This document shows, in pieces, positions 44,784 to 52,178 of a stretch of 64,000 nucleotides of DNA. The position numbers were made by a program, and so were the translations under genes. The notes beneath the pieces are model-generated. The model did not search any database. It worked only from the letters and a program-made list of their open reading frames with translations, and was not told the origin of the DNA. Source of the stretch: Rhodospirillaceae bacterium (GTDB lineage Bacteria > Pseudomonadota > Alphaproteobacteria > UBA6615); contig JABIVD010000060.1 of the NCBI GenBank assembly GCA_018667335.1, forward strand, positions 62,001 to 126,000, in the 5' to 3' direction. Every line of letters starts with the position of its first letter. The stretch's first letter is position 1.

Positions 44784-45740
44784 TTAGTCTTCCGGTGAGT
44801 CCATGAAACGAAACCCTTTTCTTACGAAATAACTTTCTGTCGCTTCTTTGAATCCATCTGGCGGTTCGATTGCAATCAAACTTCGAAGCTCGCACCCGAC
44901 GCTGGAGAACATAATTATTCCAAAGTCTGTCTTCTGACGATCCATCGAGAACTTTCTCGTTATTCCCGAGAACCCCCACGAGAACTCCTCATTTTCTGTG
45001 TCTTTTGTGACACTGTATCTACCCGAATCAGAAAGAAGCCCGAGTGATCTGAGTGAAGCGAAATCAGAGAACGAGATGTCGAATTTATCGAATGTTTGCC
45101 CGGAGAGTGCGGAAAATACCGAATTCTGTTCATTGACGATGAAGCAATCATCGTCCGCGATTTTCACGCTGCAGTTGCACACTTTCTCGAATAGCTGTGC
45201 AGAAACTGGGCTCATTGTGGCTAGTACGAGCAGAGTTCGGGCAGAGAATTTACCGGGCTCAAGTATTTCTCCCGCCAAGATTCTGGCAAATATACTCTGG
45301 ATATCTTTGTCTGACCTTTTTTCAGCGAGATCCCAAAAAATGTTCAGCCAGTCAGTTTCGATTTCTGAATCCGCGTCGCTCTGTGGTTCTAAGGACTCCA
45401 ATTGAGCCCGGGTCAATTCTGCCACTGATTCGCGGTTTAGCTGTTGTTCCAGTGCCTCTTGAGTGATTCGCCCGATGGTTCGAATTGCGAGCGAAGCATC
45501 ACCGGTGGTGGTCTGTACTGTGGATGTCTCAGCTTCGGAGAGAGCTTCGATCACGCGCGCCATACTTTCTGACGAGCTTTGGATGAGTTTTGCTCGAGCT
45601 TGAGAATTTGCGCGTTCTTCGATCGCCGATGGCGACAACACAGCGGCACCAATTCCCCTACGAATGGATTTGTAGAGATTGCTAGCAGAACGATCGAATT
45701 CGCGGACCGAAGCCGGAAGAATATTTTCCAATTTGCTCAA
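44784..45740 (-). CDS. DUF2806-like protein in a low-GC islet
   Basis: A 318-residue soluble protein. The first 100 residues are helical with Gln/Ser-rich coiled-coil character. Then comes a block typical of DUF2806-type proteins: ETDWLNIFWDLAEKRSDKDI, IFARILAGEILEPGKFSARTL, LVLATMSPVSAQLFEKV. The C-terminal third is a beta-rich domain without recognised motifs. No enzymatic residue is known for the family; related genes are patchily spread and sometimes lie near defence or mobile genes. Base composition is clearly lower in G+C than everything around it and the codon use includes many AT-ending codons, so the gene was probably acquired by transfer. No integrase or repeats flank it. Confidence 0.65.
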   Translation of the reverse strand: MSKLENILPASVREFDRSASNLYKSIRRGIGAAVLSPSAIEERANSQARAKLIQSSSESMARVIEALSEAETSTVQTTTGDASLAIRTIGRITQEALEQQLNRESVAELTRAQLESLEPQSDADSEIETDWLNIFWDLAEKRSDKDIQSIFARILAGEILEPGKFSARTLLVLATMSPVSAQLFEKVCNCSVKIADDDCFIVNEQNSVFSALSGQTFDKFDISFSDFASLRSLGLLSDSGRYSVTKDTENEEFSWGFSGITRKFSMDRQKTDFGIIMFSSVGCELRSLIAIEPPDGFKEATESYFVRKGFRFMDSPED

Positions 45741-45833: not shown

Positions 45834-46979
45834 TTACGTCCAGAAGTTGTCGCCCTCGGCGGGTCTTAACCGCCAGTTCGCGGGGTCGCGCCACTTGTCG
45901 TCGGCGAGGTCCGCACCCCGCGCGGGCTTGCACAGGAAATTCAGCTGCCCCATGCCCACCAGCCCCCAGCGGCGCAGCGCGCGCTGCTCGGCCGGGTCGG
46001 CGGTGCAGATCTCGACAGCGTCCGCCGTCGAGCCACGTATCACTTCCGGGGCCGGCGTCAGCGCCGCGTTGATCGCCAGCGCCAGCAGGTGATGCTCGGG
46101 CAGGGCGTCGTCGAAGCTCATCCAGTCCTGCACCGCGGCGATGGTCACGTCCTTCACATGGCGCTGGGTCACGTCGTCGAAGTGGCGCTGCTTGGTCAGG
46201 ATGTAGCCGGAGATTTCCACCGTTCCCTTGCGGCGCACCAGGTGCAGGTTCGTCCGGCGGGTCGGCACGTCGTTGAACTCGGTCGTCAGCAGCCAGTTGA
46301 TCCAGGCCGGCGAGCGATGCGGCGCCGCGCCGCCCTGTTCTTTGGCGTGCGCCACGAATCTATCCGCCAGTTCTTCCGGCATCTCGGGGGCCGGCACCAG
46401 CTCGTAGCGCCGATGCACCGGGCTTAAGGCGGTGCGTCCGGCCCGTTGCACGGCGAACGCGGCATCGGCGATCGGCGCGAGGATCGCGGCCAGCGCCTCC
46501 GAGCCAGTGAGTGCCGCGAGGAAACGCCGGCTCCGGCGCACCAGCACATAGCGCGGCAGGGACAGATTCACCCAGCGCAGGTTGGTGTAGAGCGGCAGCG
46601 CGATCTGGGAGACGCCGAACGCGCCCATCCACGCGCCCACGGTCTGCATCTTCATGGCCAGCATCAGGCCGATGCCCGTCGCTCGATATTTCTCGGGCAC
46701 GCCCAGCGCCGAGCCCCAGATGACGGGTGTCGGTTTGCCGTCCAGGGTGATCTCGCCGGGGAACATGTCGACCTTGCCGACGACCTTGCCGTCAGCAAGT
46801 CCGATCAGCTGCGCGGGGTCGTCGTCGCTGCCCAGGGGGTTGGCGAGGAGGGCCTCGCGTTTATAGACGGGAAGTGCGGCGAGCCCGTCGGGGTCGACCT
46901 CGGGGGATGTCAGGCGCGCGTCGTTGCCGGCGCGCAGGTCGCCCCGGGTGACGATCTCGATCGAGAGTTTCGCGCTCAG
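45834..46979 (-). CDS. GNAT-like acyltransferase of the acyl-metabolite operon
   Basis: A protein of about 381 residues. The N-terminal half is a GNAT domain: VVGKVDMFPGEITLDG, VIWGSALGVPEKYRATGIGLM (the R-x-x-G-I-G acyl-CoA/ACP loop) and MGAFGVSQIALPLYTNLRW. The C-terminal half resembles a second, degenerate GNAT-like lobe, RRTNLHLVRRKGTVEISGYIL. The start is uncertain: no ATG, GTG or TTG lies near the ligase end, and a CTG at 46979 overlapping the ligase TGA is the likeliest start. Position as last gene of the operon suggests transfer of the acyl product from ACP to an amine; this is inference. Confidence 0.68.
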   Translation of the reverse strand: MSAKLSIEIVTRGDLRAGNDARLTSPEVDPDGLAALPVYKREALLANPLGSDDDPAQLIGLADGKVVGKVDMFPGEITLDGKPTPVIWGSALGVPEKYRATGIGLMLAMKMQTVGAWMGAFGVSQIALPLYTNLRWVNLSLPRYVLVRRSRRFLAALTGSEALAAILAPIADAAFAVQRAGRTALSPVHRRYELVPAPEMPEELADRFVAHAKEQGGAAPHRSPAWINWLLTTEFNDVPTRRTNLHLVRRKGTVEISGYILTKQRHFDDVTQRHVKDVTIAAVQDWMSFDDALPEHHLLALAINAALTPAPEVIRGSTADAVEICTADPAEQRALRRWGLVGMGQLNFLCKPARGADLADDKWRDPANWRLRPAEGDNFWT

Positions 46980-48385
46980 CTTTCTGCGCCCGAGTTGGAG
47001 GTTGTGTTGGGGGCCGCATCGGGTGAGGGCGGCTGGATGTGCAGCCGCTTCATGCGATCCGAGTGCAGGGGCTCGGTCGTGAAGCTGATCTTCACCGGCA
47101 CCTTGAAGTCGTCGAGCCGCTCCGTGCAGAACGCCTTGATCCGCGCGCGCACCTCGGCGGGGGTTCCCTCTGTGCCAGTACGGTGGATGTTGGTGCAGAC
47201 GATCTGGCCCATGATCGGGTTCTTCTCCTTGAACACCACCGCGTCTTCCACGTCGGGGGATTCGAGCAATACCGTCTCGACCTCGGCCGGGTAGACCTTC
47301 TGGCCGCCCACATTGATGAGCTCGGAATCCCGGCCCAGGATGCGGAAGTATTCGCCGTCCACCTCCACCCGGTCGCCGGTCATGAAATAGCCGTCCTCGG
47401 TGAACGGGCTCGGCGCGTTGAGATAGCCGAGCATGGCGGAATCCGCCTTGATCTCCAGCATCTCGTCGACCACGCGCACATCGTAGCCGTCGCCGCCGAT
47501 CTTCACCCACAGGCTGTCGCTGGATTTGGACTTGGCGCGCAGCACGCCCAGCTCGATCAGGCCATAGGTCTGGCGCGCTTCGACATTGGGGAAGATCTTG
47601 CGCAGATCCTTCAGGGTCGAGTCCGGCATCGGCTCGGCGCCATAGCTGATCAGGCGCAGGCTCGTCAGGTCGCGGCCCTCATAAGCGCGGCTGATCAGCA
47701 GCATGTTCAGAAACGACGGCGTGCCCGGCAGCAGCTCGATTCGGTGGCGCTCGATCAGCTCGCAGACATATTCGGGCGACTGGCGCTCGGTCAGCACCAC
47801 CAGGCAATCGTTGGCCAGCGCATGCAGCAGCGTGTTGAGCCCGCCCCAGTGATCGAACATGAGAAGGTTGAGCGTGATCGACGCGCCGCGTTTCGTCTTG
47901 AACTTCTCCAGCAGCTTGGCGAAGTCGTGCACCACGCCCTTGGGCAGGCCGGTCGAGCCGGACGTGAACAGCACCAGCCCCGGCGCGTCGGCGTCGGTGA
48001 GTTTTTTGTAGAGCGCGTGGGGTTCGCCGGAGCCGCGTTTGGTGAAGGCGACGTCGGTGCCCTCGGTCACGTCGATGATCATCGACGGGTCGACCATGTC
48101 GATCAGGGCCGGGTTGCGTGACCGGGTCAGCGGCAGCAGCGGCACGACGATGGCCTTCAGGTCGATCAGCGCCAGCAGCAGGGATGCCGCGGCGGGCGCA
48201 TATTCGCTGCACAGCACCACCACGTCGCCGGGCCGGACGCCTTCGGCCATGAGCGTTTCGCGCCGCGCCCCAATGTCATCTGCCAGCCAACCATACGTAT
48301 AAACGTCGTCTCGCCAGGCGATCGCGGGCCCGTCCGGGTTGTCCCTGAACCGCTCGATGAAGAAGCCGATATCGCTTTCGCTCAC
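46976..48385 (-). CDS. AMP-dependent acyl/aryl ligase
   Basis: A 469-residue ANL-superfamily ligase. The ATP loop is TSGSTGLPKG at 141-150. The A5 motif reads QTYGLIELG, and A7-A8 are MTGDRVEVDGEYFRILGRDSELINVGGQKVYPAEVE. The C-terminal catalytic Lys is in DFKVPVKIS. Such enzymes activate a carboxylic acid as AMP ester and load it onto CoA or an acyl carrier protein. It is short compared with fatty-acyl-CoA synthetases, like aryl- or short-chain acid ligases. The GTG start follows GGAGG that overlaps the end of the KAS III gene. It may load the starter acid of the operon's product. Confidence 0.85.
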   Translation of the reverse strand: MSESDIGFFIERFRDNPDGPAIAWRDDVYTYGWLADDIGARRETLMAEGVRPGDVVVLCSEYAPAAASLLLALIDLKAIVVPLLPLTRSRNPALIDMVDPSMIIDVTEGTDVAFTKRGSGEPHALYKKLTDADAPGLVLFTSGSTGLPKGVVHDFAKLLEKFKTKRGASITLNLLMFDHWGGLNTLLHALANDCLVVLTERQSPEYVCELIERHRIELLPGTPSFLNMLLISRAYEGRDLTSLRLISYGAEPMPDSTLKDLRKIFPNVEARQTYGLIELGVLRAKSKSSDSLWVKIGGDGYDVRVVDEMLEIKADSAMLGYLNAPSPFTEDGYFMTGDRVEVDGEYFRILGRDSELINVGGQKVYPAEVETVLLESPDVEDAVVFKEKNPIMGQIVCTNIHRTGTEGTPAEVRARIKAFCTERLDDFKVPVKISFTTEPLHSDRMKRLHIQPPSPDAAPNTTSNSGAES

Positions 48386-48395
48386 CGGACGCCTC

Positions 48396-49403
48396 CTACA
48401 GCCGGACCAGGGCGGTGCCCCAGGACAGGCCGACGCCGAAGCCGCACAGGATGGCCAGTTGGCCGGGCCTGGCCGTGCCGTCGTCCCGCGCCATCGCCAG
48501 CGCCACGGGGACCGAGGCCGAGACCAGGTTGCCTGTCGTCGCCAGCTTGTTGACGAGTTTTTCAGCTGGGATTTTCAGCGCCTTGGCGATCGAGTCCAGC
48601 GCCACCTGGCTCGCCTGGTGGAACACGAACAGGTCCACGTCGTCCAGCGTGAGGTCGTTTGCCTCCAGGACCCCACGCACATGTTTGGGGATGACGCCGT
48701 TGAAAAACGACAGCACCTGGAACCCCTCCATGGTGATGTCGGCCGGCGTGCGGATGTTGCCGGATCTGTCCTCGGTCTCGATGGCCGTGGCATCGCTCAG
48801 CGGGGTGCGGGTGCCGCCCGCGGGCACGATGAAGCGGTCGTAGAACTTGCCCTCGGAGCCGAGGCTGAGATCGATGATGCCGCTGGCGTCGTCGTCCGCA
48901 GCGGTGATGATCGAGGCCGCCGCCCCGTCGCCGAACAGCACCCGGGTCGAGCGGTCGCCGGGGTTGATCAGCCTGGAATAGGTGTCGGCGGTGGCCAGCA
49001 GGATACGGCTTGCCGCCCCGCTGGTGATCAGGCTCCGCGCCACCTCCAGGGAATAGAGATAGCCCGAGCAGCCCATGTTGATGTCCAGCGCCAGCACATT
49101 CCGGGGCAGCTCCAGCTTGCCATGGAGCAGGCAGGCGTTGGACGGGATCGGATAGTCCGGCGTCTCGGTGCAGAACAGCAGACCGTCGATGCCGTCCAGA
49201 GCGCCGTTCGCTTTCAGGGATTCACAAGCCGCGAAGGCCAGGTCCAGCGCCGTCTCGCCGTCCGTCGCGATGTGCCGGGACATCACGCCCGTGCGCGCCT
49301 CCAGCCGGTCGAAATCCCAGTCGGGATACTGCGCGCGGAGGTCTTCGTTGCTGACCACGTTATTCGGGAGGGCGACGCCGATGTCGGCGATGGTGACGCT
49401 CAT
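48396..49403 (-). CDS. Beta-ketoacyl-ACP synthase III-like condensing enzyme
   Basis: A 335-residue thiolase-fold enzyme. The catalytic triad of KAS III is present: Cys112 in DINMGCSGYLYSLE, His262 in FVFHQASQ and Asn292 in ATTGNLVSASVPVAL. The nucleotide-CoA binding region shows RHIATDGETALDL and the GDGAAASIITA dimer loop. KAS III enzymes condense an acyl-CoA or acyl-ACP starter with malonyl-ACP. Variants such as PqsD or CerJ instead make signal molecules or esters. The gene is the fourth of the operon and overlaps the MBL gene by four bases. The housekeeping fabH usually lies beside plsX, which is absent here, so this is a dedicated copy. Confidence 0.87.
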   Translation of the reverse strand: MSVTIADIGVALPNNVVSNEDLRAQYPDWDFDRLEARTGVMSRHIATDGETALDLAFAACESLKANGALDGIDGLLFCTETPDYPIPSNACLLHGKLELPRNVLALDINMGCSGYLYSLEVARSLITSGAASRILLATADTYSRLINPGDRSTRVLFGDGAAASIITAADDDASGIIDLSLGSEGKFYDRFIVPAGGTRTPLSDATAIETEDRSGNIRTPADITMEGFQVLSFFNGVIPKHVRGVLEANDLTLDDVDLFVFHQASQVALDSIAKALKIPAEKLVNKLATTGNLVSASVPVALAMARDDGTARPGQLAILCGFGVGLSWGTALVRL

Positions 49404-50059
49404 GACTGGCCCGCCTTGGGATCCTGCAGGTTGTCCAGCAGGTCGCCCAGTGCCATCGATGCGCCGTGTCCCGGATGGGCCGTCAGGTCGCGGGGCAAAT
49501 CGTTGAGCATCGCGACGGATGCTTCCAGCGCGTCGCCGTCGCCGCCGGGCAGGTCGATCCGGCCCACACCAGCAGGCAGCACCGTGTCGCCGGTGAACAG
49601 CTCGCCGCCGATCCGCAAGCAGACCCCGCCCGGCGTGTGGCCCGGCGAGGGCAGGACCTCGATGGTGAAGCCGGCAATGGTGATGTCGGCAACATCGGTC
49701 AGGTCGTGAGTGATCTCGGGCACCTTCAGCGCCTCGCCCGGGTCGATCACCATCTTGTAGAGGTTCATCCGCTTGAGCAGCGCCTCGTCGGCCCGGTGCA
49801 GATAGAAGGGGATGTCGTAGCGCGCCATCAGCGGGGCGACCGCGCCCACATGGTCGAAATGGGCATGGGTGCAGATGATCGCCGCGGGGCGCCAGTTGTG
49901 TGTGTCGAGGATGCCCGTGATCGCGTCGGTGTCGCTGCCCGGGTCGATCAGCAGCGCGGGGCCGCCACCGGGGCCATCGGGGCCGCCGACGATGTAGGCG
50001 TTCTCGCGATAGATGCCGTTGGTGAATTGCTCGACCGCGACCTGTTCGGAACCGCTCAC
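49400..50059 (-). CDS. MBL-fold hydrolase (thioesterase-like)
   Basis: A 219-residue metallo-beta-lactamase-fold hydrolase. Metal ligands HxHxDH are His65, His67, Asp69 and His70 in CTHAHFDH. Further ligands lie in PSPGHTPGG and FTGDTVLPAGVG and the final HPGHGASM. The fold is of the glyoxalase II type. In the PQS pathway PqsE, an MBL-fold protein, can act as thioesterase on a KAS III product; a similar hydrolysis or release step is plausible here. The GTG start overlaps the ketoreductase end by four bases. Confidence 0.85.
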   Translation of the reverse strand: MSGSEQVAVEQFTNGIYRENAYIVGGPDGPGGGPALLIDPGSDTDAITGILDTHNWRPAAIICTHAHFDHVGAVAPLMARYDIPFYLHRADEALLKRMNLYKMVIDPGEALKVPEITHDLTDVADITIAGFTIEVLPSPGHTPGGVCLRIGGELFTGDTVLPAGVGRIDLPGGDGDALEASVAMLNDLPRDLTAHPGHGASMALGDLLDNLQDPKAGQS

Positions 50060-50763
50060 CGGACCCCGCCGAAATACACGACCTGGTTGGTGATGTTCCC
50101 CGCCGCGCCCGCCGCGAAAAAGTCGACCGCATGCGCGATCTCCTCGGTCGTGATCAGGTCGGGCTTGATCAGCTCGGCCTGCTTGTCGGCCAGGCCCTTG
50201 TCCGACAGGCCCTCGGCCATGCCCGAGCCTTCGACCAGCGACAGGCCCACCGTGTTGATGGTGATGTCGGCGCTGCCGATCTCGCGGGCCAGCGTGTGGC
50301 CGAGATTCTCCAGGCCCGCTTTCGAGGCGTTGTAGAGCGCCCCGCCGACGCTGCCGAGCGGCACGTTGATCGACGAGATATTGACGATCCGACCGTGCTT
50401 GGCGCGCATCATGTGCTTGATGGTCTCGCGCAGGACAGTGAACGCGCCGACGAGATTTGTCTCAAGGATATCAGAGGCTTCGGCGCTGCCCGTCAGCAGG
50501 GCGGGCCTGGATTGGGTGATTCCGGCGTTATTTATCAAATGATCAATAACGCACCCCGCGTCCAGCACGGCCTTGAAGACGTCGCGAACGGCCGCCTCGT
50601 CGGTGATATCGGCTTTGATATGGGTGTAGTTGTCGTGGGCGAGATCGCTGTCGCCGCGCGCGCAGCCGAACACCCGATGGCCCGCACCCGCGTAATGGGC
50701 GGCCAGCGCCCGGCCGATACTGCGGCTGGCTCCGGTGATCAGGATGGTGCGCGGATCGCTCAT
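50056..50763 (-). CDS. SDR ketoreductase (FabG-like)
   Basis: A 235-residue short-chain reductase. It has the cofactor loop ITGASRSIGRALA, NNAGI, the catalytic Ser in VNISSINVP and the YNASK pair with catalytic Tyr and Lys. This is the FabG arrangement, reducing 3-oxoacyl-ACP with NADPH. Its place after the ACP gene and before the KAS III-like gene fits reduction of the condensation product. Overlap with the MBL gene is four bases. Confidence 0.87.
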   Translation of the reverse strand: MSDPRTILITGASRSIGRALAAHYAGAGHRVFGCARGDSDLAHDNYTHIKADITDEAAVRDVFKAVLDAGCVIDHLINNAGITQSRPALLTGSAEASDILETNLVGAFTVLRETIKHMMRAKHGRIVNISSINVPLGSVGGALYNASKAGLENLGHTLAREIGSADITINTVGLSLVEGSGMAEGLSDKGLADKQAELIKPDLITTEEIAHAVDFFAAGAAGNITNQVVYFGGVR

Positions 50764-50776
50764 AAGTAATTGTTTT

Positions 50777-51073
50777 CTAGGATAGAACGCCGTCGAGATG
50801 GGCCGCCAGGCTGCCGACGGTTTCGAACGGGTTGTTGTCGAGGCCCATAGTGGATTCGTCGACCAGCACGACCGATTGCCCGGTCGCGTCCTGGATGTGA
50901 TTCTCGATCGCGACGATCAGGTTCACCAGCTGCAGGGAATCCATCCCGTCGTCGCTGCCGAACAGGCGCGTCGCCTCGGCCTTCTCGATCAGCTGGGCGC
51001 CGGGGCCCTCGTCGGCGATCTGTGCGTTCAGCTCTTCGATGGCGGCGTAGATGATGTCCAGGCTCTGGCTCAT
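50777..51073 (-). CDS. Acyl carrier protein
   Basis: A 98-residue acidic carrier protein. The phosphopantetheine site is Ser46 in GMDSLQLVNLI, matching the DSL motif. Helices before and after match ACP helix I to IV, including FETVGSLAAHL near the end. It is longer than the fatty-acid ACP and sits as first gene of the operon, so it is a dedicated carrier. It starts at ATG 51073; 238 bases separate it from the divergent MBL gene at 51312, leaving room for the operon promoter. Confidence 0.9.
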   Translation of the reverse strand: MSQSLDIIYAAIEELNAQIADEGPGAQLIEKAEATRLFGSDDGMDSLQLVNLIVAIENHIQDATGQSVVLVDESTMGLDNNPFETVGSLAAHLDGVLS

Positions 51074-51311: not shown

Positions 51312-52178
51312 ATGATCAGACTACGCAGCCTCGCGGCGATCGCCGCTGCGACCATGATGTTTACCGGGGTGCTCGCACCCCAGGCGGGCGCCCAGCAGGA
51401 GGTGAAGCGTTCGATCACCGAGATCGGGCCCAATCTTTACCGCTTCAAGAATAACTTCCACAGCTCGGTGTTCCTGGTCACCGACGCGGGGGTGGTCGCG
51501 ACCGACCCGATCAATGCCGCCGCCGCGACCTGGCTCGAGAACGAGATCCGCACGCGGTTTGGCCAGGAAATCCGTTACGTCGTCTATTCCCACGACCATG
51601 CCGACCATATTTCCGGCGGCGAAGTCTGGGACGACACGGCGGTCGTGGTCTCCCACGTGAATGCGCGTGACACCATCATCGCGGCCAAGCGCCCGACGGC
51701 GGTGCCCGAGCTGACCTTCTCCGACGAGTTGATCCTCAATCTTGGCGGCCAGACGGTCGAGCTGAAGCATGTCGGGCGCAACCATTCCGACAACATGATC
51801 GTGATGAACTTCCCGGCCCAGCGCGTGCTGTTCGCCGTCGACTTCATTCCGATCCAGGCCGTCGCCTTCCGCGACCTGCCGGATGCGTGGTTGCCGGACT
51901 GGATCGATTCCGTGCGCGCGGTCGAAGGGATGGACTTCGATACGCTGGCCCCGGGCCACGGCAAGATGGGCACGCCCGCCGACGTCACGGCCTTCCGCGA
52001 GTATATGGAAGACCTGTGGGCGGCGGTGAGCCAGGCTGTCGCCGACGGCAAGACGCTGGAACAGGCTCAGGCCGAGATCAAGCTGCCGAAGTATGCCGGT
52101 TGGGGCCGCTATGAGCAGTTCCTGCCGCTCAACATCGCCGGCGCCTATCGCGTCCGGTCGGCGAACTGGCGCCGCTAG
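51312..52178 (+). CDS. Secreted MBL-fold metallohydrolase
   Basis: A 288-residue protein with a Sec signal peptide (MIRLRSLAAIAAATMMFTGV, cleavage near AGAQQ at about residue 25). The MBL metal site is HDHADH in YVVYSHDHADHISGG; further ligands appear in HVGRNHSDN, FAVDFIP and LAPGHGKMG. It resembles periplasmic hydrolases annotated as quinoprotein-relay or SoxH-like. The substrate is unknown. The next gene lies 124 bases downstream and could be cotranscribed. Confidence 0.87.
   Translation: MIRLRSLAAIAAATMMFTGVLAPQAGAQQEVKRSITEIGPNLYRFKNNFHSSVFLVTDAGVVATDPINAAAATWLENEIRTRFGQEIRYVVYSHDHADHISGGEVWDDTAVVVSHVNARDTIIAAKRPTAVPELTFSDELILNLGGQTVELKHVGRNHSDNMIVMNFPAQRVLFAVDFIPIQAVAFRDLPDAWLPDWIDSVRAVEGMDFDTLAPGHGKMGTPADVTAFREYMEDLWAAVSQAVADGKTLEQAQAEIKLPKYAGWGRYEQFLPLNIAGAYRVRSANWRR

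Follow-up and report, generated by a model that had tools for sequence, protein, structure and literature searches.

What does a bacterial operon make that joins a dedicated acyl carrier protein (ACP) to a short-chain dehydrogenase/reductase (SDR), a metallo-beta-lactamase-fold (MBL) hydrolase, a 3-oxoacyl-ACP synthase III (KAS III), an adenylate-forming ligase and a probable acyltransferase? The six genes lie in this order on the minus strand at 45834-51073 of a 64-kb stretch (the window) from a 3.5-Mb draft genome of a Rhodospirillaceae bacterium. An interpretation made from the nucleotide sequence alone (the sequence-only reading) had placed six same-strand genes here, as the gene ends bear out, and had proposed an acyl-metabolite or signal pathway. 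Our analysis suggests, on balance, that the cassette makes a short 3-hydroxyacyl-ACP with which an amino sugar of the surface is N-acylated. The gene set, the catalytic residues, the conservation, the glycan genes around its relatives and the co-occurrence of the MBL gene are observed, and every reaction, the step order, the acyl group and its acceptor are inferred. We favour the passing of a short hydroxyacyl group from ACP to an amino sugar because the KAS III belongs to the family found in viosamine loci, because of the neighbourhood in which its nearest relative outside the genus lies, and because the ligase is akin to that of the thiomarinol plasmid pTML1, the mupirocin counterparts of which make a hydroxyacyl starter on an ACP. 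A small 3-hydroxyacyl product released as an amide, one of the outcomes foreseen by the sequence-only reading, is hence the likeliest, and its components (ACP, ligase, one KAS III condensation, reductase and transfer to an amine) are supported in kind.

In the pathway that we envisage, KAS III would join a short acyl-CoA to malonyl-ACP to give one 3-oxoacyl unit, and the MBL protein would hydrolyse this product to the free acid. The ligase would then reload the acid on the dedicated ACP, where the SDR would reduce it to a 3-hydroxyacyl group, 3-hydroxybutanoyl being the likeliest. Finally, the GNAT-like protein would link this group by an amide bond to an amino sugar, for which the genes would lie elsewhere in the genome. 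KAS III and MBL would in this way be an acid-supply module added to a loading-and-reducing module of ligase, SDR and ACP. The hydrolyse-and-reload wiring by MBL and ligase is put forward tentatively. It is also conceivable, rather than probable, that a portable five-gene cassette, shared by Pseudomonadota and three other phyla, builds a 3-oxoacyl group, frees, reloads and reduces it and gives it to an envelope amino sugar. The order assumed earlier, in which the ligase loads a starter acid on the ACP and KAS III extends it, is doubtful, since the usual starter of KAS III is an acyl-CoA, the ACP carrying the malonyl unit. Short hydroxyacyl amides on surface sugars alter the recognition of bacteria by phages, hosts and antibodies. 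Little has been mapped of the routes that supply them, and with a recognisable cassette such surface decorations could be predicted from genomes.

The operon set is more than a chance assembly: G000, G022 and G023, all of this genus, carry it at one site with 76-97% identity, and the order of five of its genes recurs in four further lineages. In all three genomes the operon lies beside a CMD gene and a divergent MBL-fold gene; polA is on its other side in G000 and G023, and the G022 contig stops inside the acyltransferase gene. The ACP orthologs in G022 and G023 show 97% identity. Between polA and CMD, nothing but a relic remains in two relatives: in G019 the final 46 codons of the acyltransferase gene (L010, 9971-10108) and in G020 the initial 45 codons of the ACP gene (L161, 9755-9877). 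The ligase is absent from G018-G021. These relics at the same site indicate that the operon is of long standing in the genus and that some members have lost it by deletion. The divergent MBL-fold gene has orthologs (92-100% identity) in exactly the three operon-bearing genomes of the genus; beyond the genus it was sought only in the loci of KAS III relatives, five-gene cassettes included, where only L028 has one.

A single scan with the KAS III as query, covering 84,980 species genomes, yielded 80 loci. Polynucleobacter (L032), Variovorax gossypii (L035), an acidobacterium (L034) and a nitrospinote (L053) share the order ACP-SDR-MBL-KAS III-ligase, and the same five genes are rearranged in an actinobacterial metagenome-assembled genome (L030) and in another alphaproteobacterium (L138, with a FabH-like KAS III). 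The sequence-only reading had named scattered, unlinked copies among relatives as counting against a pathway; this objection does not apply, since the set is kept as a block. Five of these six loci outside the genus sit among glycan genes, as confirmed by Pfam. In Polynucleobacter the neighbours are GlcNAc 2-epimerase, PIG-L deacetylase and sugar-phosphate transferase genes, and in V. gossypii RmlC (rhamnose synthesis), GT2, PIG-L and MBOAT. FdtA-type and DegT amino-sugar genes directly follow the cassette in the acidobacterium, which also has a Wzx-type flippase gene; DegT, a PglC-type transferase and PglD accompany it in the actinobacterial genome, and a sugar nucleotidyltransferase and a GNAT in the alphaproteobacterium.

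Outside the genus, the KAS III closest to that of the window (62% identity, with an adjacent ACP of 52%) lies in a nonulosonate-type locus, L029, which shares four genes (PseB, PseC, Gfo and a cytidylyltransferase-aminotransferase) with locus L159 of the operon's own genome. This genome has two nonulosonate-type loci, L159 on contig C18 and L160 on contig C60. L159 carries PseB/PseC-like genes and a FemAB-like transferase gene, and no PseH-type GNAT was recognised in it. As a candidate acceptor pathway the PseB/PseC locus is suggestive, but no such locus tracks the presence of the operon in the genus.

With regard to the MBL protein, its co-occurrence was counted by profile searches over 103 sources. 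All nine loci with both KAS III and ligase have the MBL gene. The 12 loci with the ligase only lack it, and so do the roughly 80 with KAS III only, although the absence is weaker in this last group as some of its contigs are short. Outside the genus alone the contrast is 6 versus 0/12 (compared by Fisher's exact test), with lineages that are not independent. Since the MBL occurs only where both partners are present, the simplest reading suggests that it forms the link between the KAS III product and the ligase. This co-occurrence is a new observation and poses a directly testable biochemical question. It is also evident that the ligase and SDR, mostly with a recognisable ACP, occur without KAS III (L110, L129-L133 and L139-L141), and in four of these loci (L110, L131, L132 and L140) the pairs or trios have GNAT or PglD-type acyltransferase genes as neighbours. 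A single clade (100/99) unites the SDRs of the five-gene loci with those of the trios and is separate from FabG and from the pTML1-type and vio-type SDRs. In L110 and L131 the ligase-SDR genes and a PglD-like/hexapeptide acyltransferase gene also lie beside a halogenase annotated as CmlS (L110) or a similar-looking flavoprotein (L131).

Among described systems, the viosamine island of Pseudomonas syringae comprises vioA, the KAS III gene vioS, the reductase gene vioR, acp and the acyltransferase gene vioB; it has been linked to an N-(3-hydroxy-1-oxobutyl) viosamine on flagellin, and vioA, vioB, vioT and vioR mutants lack modified viosamine (PMC3927599). This island, like comparable loci in P. 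aeruginosa PAK and on B. glumae pBGF3, resembles the operon in having a KAS III of the same broad family, a small ACP of its own, an SDR and an acyltransferase. The window KAS III is about 41-46% identical to KAS IIIs of vio-type loci in B. glumae, Paraburkholderia, Pseudomonas and Janthinobacterium, a set that does not include P. syringae VioS itself; in the tree, they and the window protein fall on one side of FabH, in different subclades. The window KAS III is a paralog (36% identity) of the genome's other KAS III, presumably FabH. The viosamine-type loci differ in lacking a ligase and an MBL gene, in having a hexapeptide rather than a GNAT-like acyltransferase and in their adjacent amino-sugar and flagellin genes, as in B. 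glumae (flagellin-vioA-KAS III-ACP-SDR-acyltransferase). Their SDRs form a separate 100/99 clade, and the window reductase is not of the VioR type. Neither a VioB hexapeptide acyltransferase nor a sugar aminotransferase was found among the operon genes and the neighbours examined; strong DegT aminotransferase matches are located in the same genome on other contigs. Flagellin glycosylation islands of Enterobacteriaceae, with Acp, a CaiC ligase and FabG, have been proposed to supply an acyl (liposugar) component (PMC4875605). By description they share with the operon an ACP, a ligase and a reductase within a glycan locus, whereas they hold LuxC/LuxE, and neither KAS III nor MBL is among their listed genes.

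The ligase points to another known scheme. Over its full length it is 37-38% identical to the ligase of pTML1, with the DHxGG and P-loop motifs shared, and 37-45% identical to this ligase and two Burkholderia/Bradyrhizobium relatives taken together. The ligase, SDR and ACP genes of pTML1 are those which we take to be TmlQ, TmlS and TacpD. The likeness lies in a homologous ligase with linked SDR and ACP genes, and the kinship to the MupQ/TmlQ family rests on the pTML1 ligase, the member that was compared. In contrast, the window SDR is not of the MupS/TmlS type (28% identity to the pTML1 SDR, separate 100/98 clade), and the window ACP, which gave no BLAST match to the pTML1 ACP, is not of the MacpD/TacpD type; the operon also differs in having KAS III and MBL genes and no polyketide synthase (PKS) gene near by. 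A search of open-licence papers found no description of the full gene set. It appears that the sequence-only reading was right that the whole set matches no named pathway, whereas its parts do follow two known schemes: VioS/VioR/ACP/VioB and, as far as the ligase is concerned, the starter cassette of thiomarinol and mupirocin.

In mupirocin synthesis, MupQ, MupS and MacpD make a 3-hydroxypropionyl-ACP starter from malonyl-CoA (PMC10098928). By analogy, the same product and acceptor as in our reading could, possibly though not probably, be reached by another wiring, in which the ligase charges the ACP with malonyl, KAS III condenses this malonyl-ACP with acetyl-CoA, the SDR reduces, and the MBL protein is a proof-reading thioesterase that clears mis-acylated ACP. 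KAS III would then act in its usual sense, with the ACP bearing malonyl, and so divergent an ACP may not be served by FabD. A proof-reading thioesterase would, however, also be expected in ligase-only or KAS-only systems, where the operon-type MBL is missing, and the family link to MupQ runs through pTML1. It is improbable that, in the manner of mupirocin or thiomarinol, a specialised metabolite is started here, with ligase, SDR and ACP together preparing a hydroxyacyl unit for another synthase to extend. In pTML1, B. stagnalis and Bradyrhizobium, relatives of the ligase do stand next to SDR, ACP and PKS genes, and the KAS III clade takes in PKS/nonribosomal peptide synthetase (NRPS) clusters of Deinococcus; against this, the TmlS-type clade does not include the SDR, no similarity of the ACP to the pTML1 carrier was detectable, the surroundings of the operon hold neither PKS nor NRPS genes, and most five-gene relatives are in glycan loci.

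The sequence-only reading had drawn a parallel to PqsA, PqsD and PqsE of Pseudomonas aeruginosa, where a ligase, a KAS III fold and an MBL thioesterase likewise serve one pathway. These similar folds within one operon are what speaks for a diffusible signal of this kind, which we nevertheless regard as very improbable. The best PDB match of the window KAS III was 3gwa, a 3-oxoacyl-ACP synthase III (270 bits), and PqsD scored 160 bits, a level like that of FabH proteins. PqsE was absent from the matches of the operon MBL at E 1e-8. Beyond the superfamily no specific relation to PqsD or PqsE was found, and the parallel is not supported; the idea of a signal fares no better, as the operon has no regulator and its relatives adjoin glycan genes. 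For the ligase, a profile search of the PDB at E 1e-30 listed several aryl-acid ligases and no PqsA.

Several observations weigh against N-acylation of a surface sugar by the proposed route. Hydrolysing a thioester and reloading the acid would cost ATP, and both this cycle and its free 3-oxoacid step are hypothetical. In neither the window nor G023 was a glycan gene recognised beside the operon, and operon-bearing G023 has no close PseC among its DegT-linked loci (best 33%), so that no acceptor pathway tracks the operon. The nitrospinote cassette has AsnB (asparagine synthase) and NodU-type neighbours, which only hint at glycans. The acyltransferase is only weakly GNAT, and a profile comparison of the window protein with the cassette-adjacent candidates in Polynucleobacter and Variovorax gave no significant kinship.

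The earlier assignment of this sixth gene to the GNATs stands as probable, possibly in tandem form, on weak support: Pfam GNAT matches below threshold (E 0.07 and 0.13), an RxxGxG motif kept in one distant homolog, and a low-confidence model (predicted local distance difference test, pLDDT, 39) that is too poor for a fold search and in which the N-terminal strands and helices look GNAT-like. The model of the Polynucleobacter/Variovorax candidate (pLDDT 43) shows its elements in a GNAT-like order, and its C-terminal half alone is predicted with fair confidence. The window acyltransferase is rare outside the genus, and the plasmid search gave no homologs. A NodU-type carbamoyltransferase gene adjoins both its distant homolog in L011 and the cassette in L053.

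The catalytic residues named by the sequence-only reading in the other five proteins are all present (Table 1). The HAHFDH motif of the MBL protein (residues 65-70) is joined by GHT and HPGHG motifs, and a thioesterase is its probable identity as judged from sequence. The ligase, probably an acyl-ACP ligase, has its TSGSTGLPKG motif at 141 and a C-terminal Lys446 corresponding to the lysine used for adenylation in its superfamily. The ACP matches PF00550 (PP-binding) at E 0.019, which is below the Pfam cut-off.

Table 1. Genes of the operon and the adjoining divergent gene (window coordinates)
Gene product	Position	Strand	Features
Dedicated ACP, 98 aa	50777..51073	-	Ser46 in DGMDSLQL; divergent, PF00550 sub-threshold
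SDR reductase, 235 aa	50056..50763	-	YNASK (Y144); clade of ligase-linked reductases
MBL-fold hydrolase, 219 aa	49400..50059	-	GloB-like, HAHFDH; probable thioesterase
KAS III, 335 aa	48396..49403	-	Cys112-His262-Asn292
Adenylate-forming ligase, 469 aa	46976..48385	-	TSGSTGLPKG, DHxGG; probable acyl-ACP ligase
Probable (tandem) GNAT acyltransferase, ~380 aa	45834..46979	-	Start uncertain, CTG at 46979-46977
Divergent MBL-fold hydrolase, signal-peptide-like N-terminus	51312..52178	+	Operon-associated; adjoins ACP

The first four junctions of the operon are a 13-base gap between ACP and SDR, 4-base overlaps of SDR with MBL and of MBL with KAS III, and a 10-base gap between KAS III and ligase. 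The ligase/acyltransferase junction is uncertain, as the acyltransferase frame has no ATG, GTG or TTG near by; a CTG overlapping the ligase stop (CTGA) would make a further 4-base overlap. In the G022 ortholog an ATG lies near the same place.

Two Deinococcus plasmids (L020 and L021) carry a KAS III of the same subclade and an ACP in their PKS/NRPS clusters, together with a GNAT-annotated gene of about 360 aa and a radical-SAM or coproporphyrinogen-oxidase-like gene. The base composition of the operon is like that of its surroundings, except for the downstream DUF2806/TIGR03899 gene (44784-45740, minus strand), which lies in a stretch of 47-56% G+C compared with 62-69% in the operon. This gene was not found at the same site in G023 and is probably a recent arrival.

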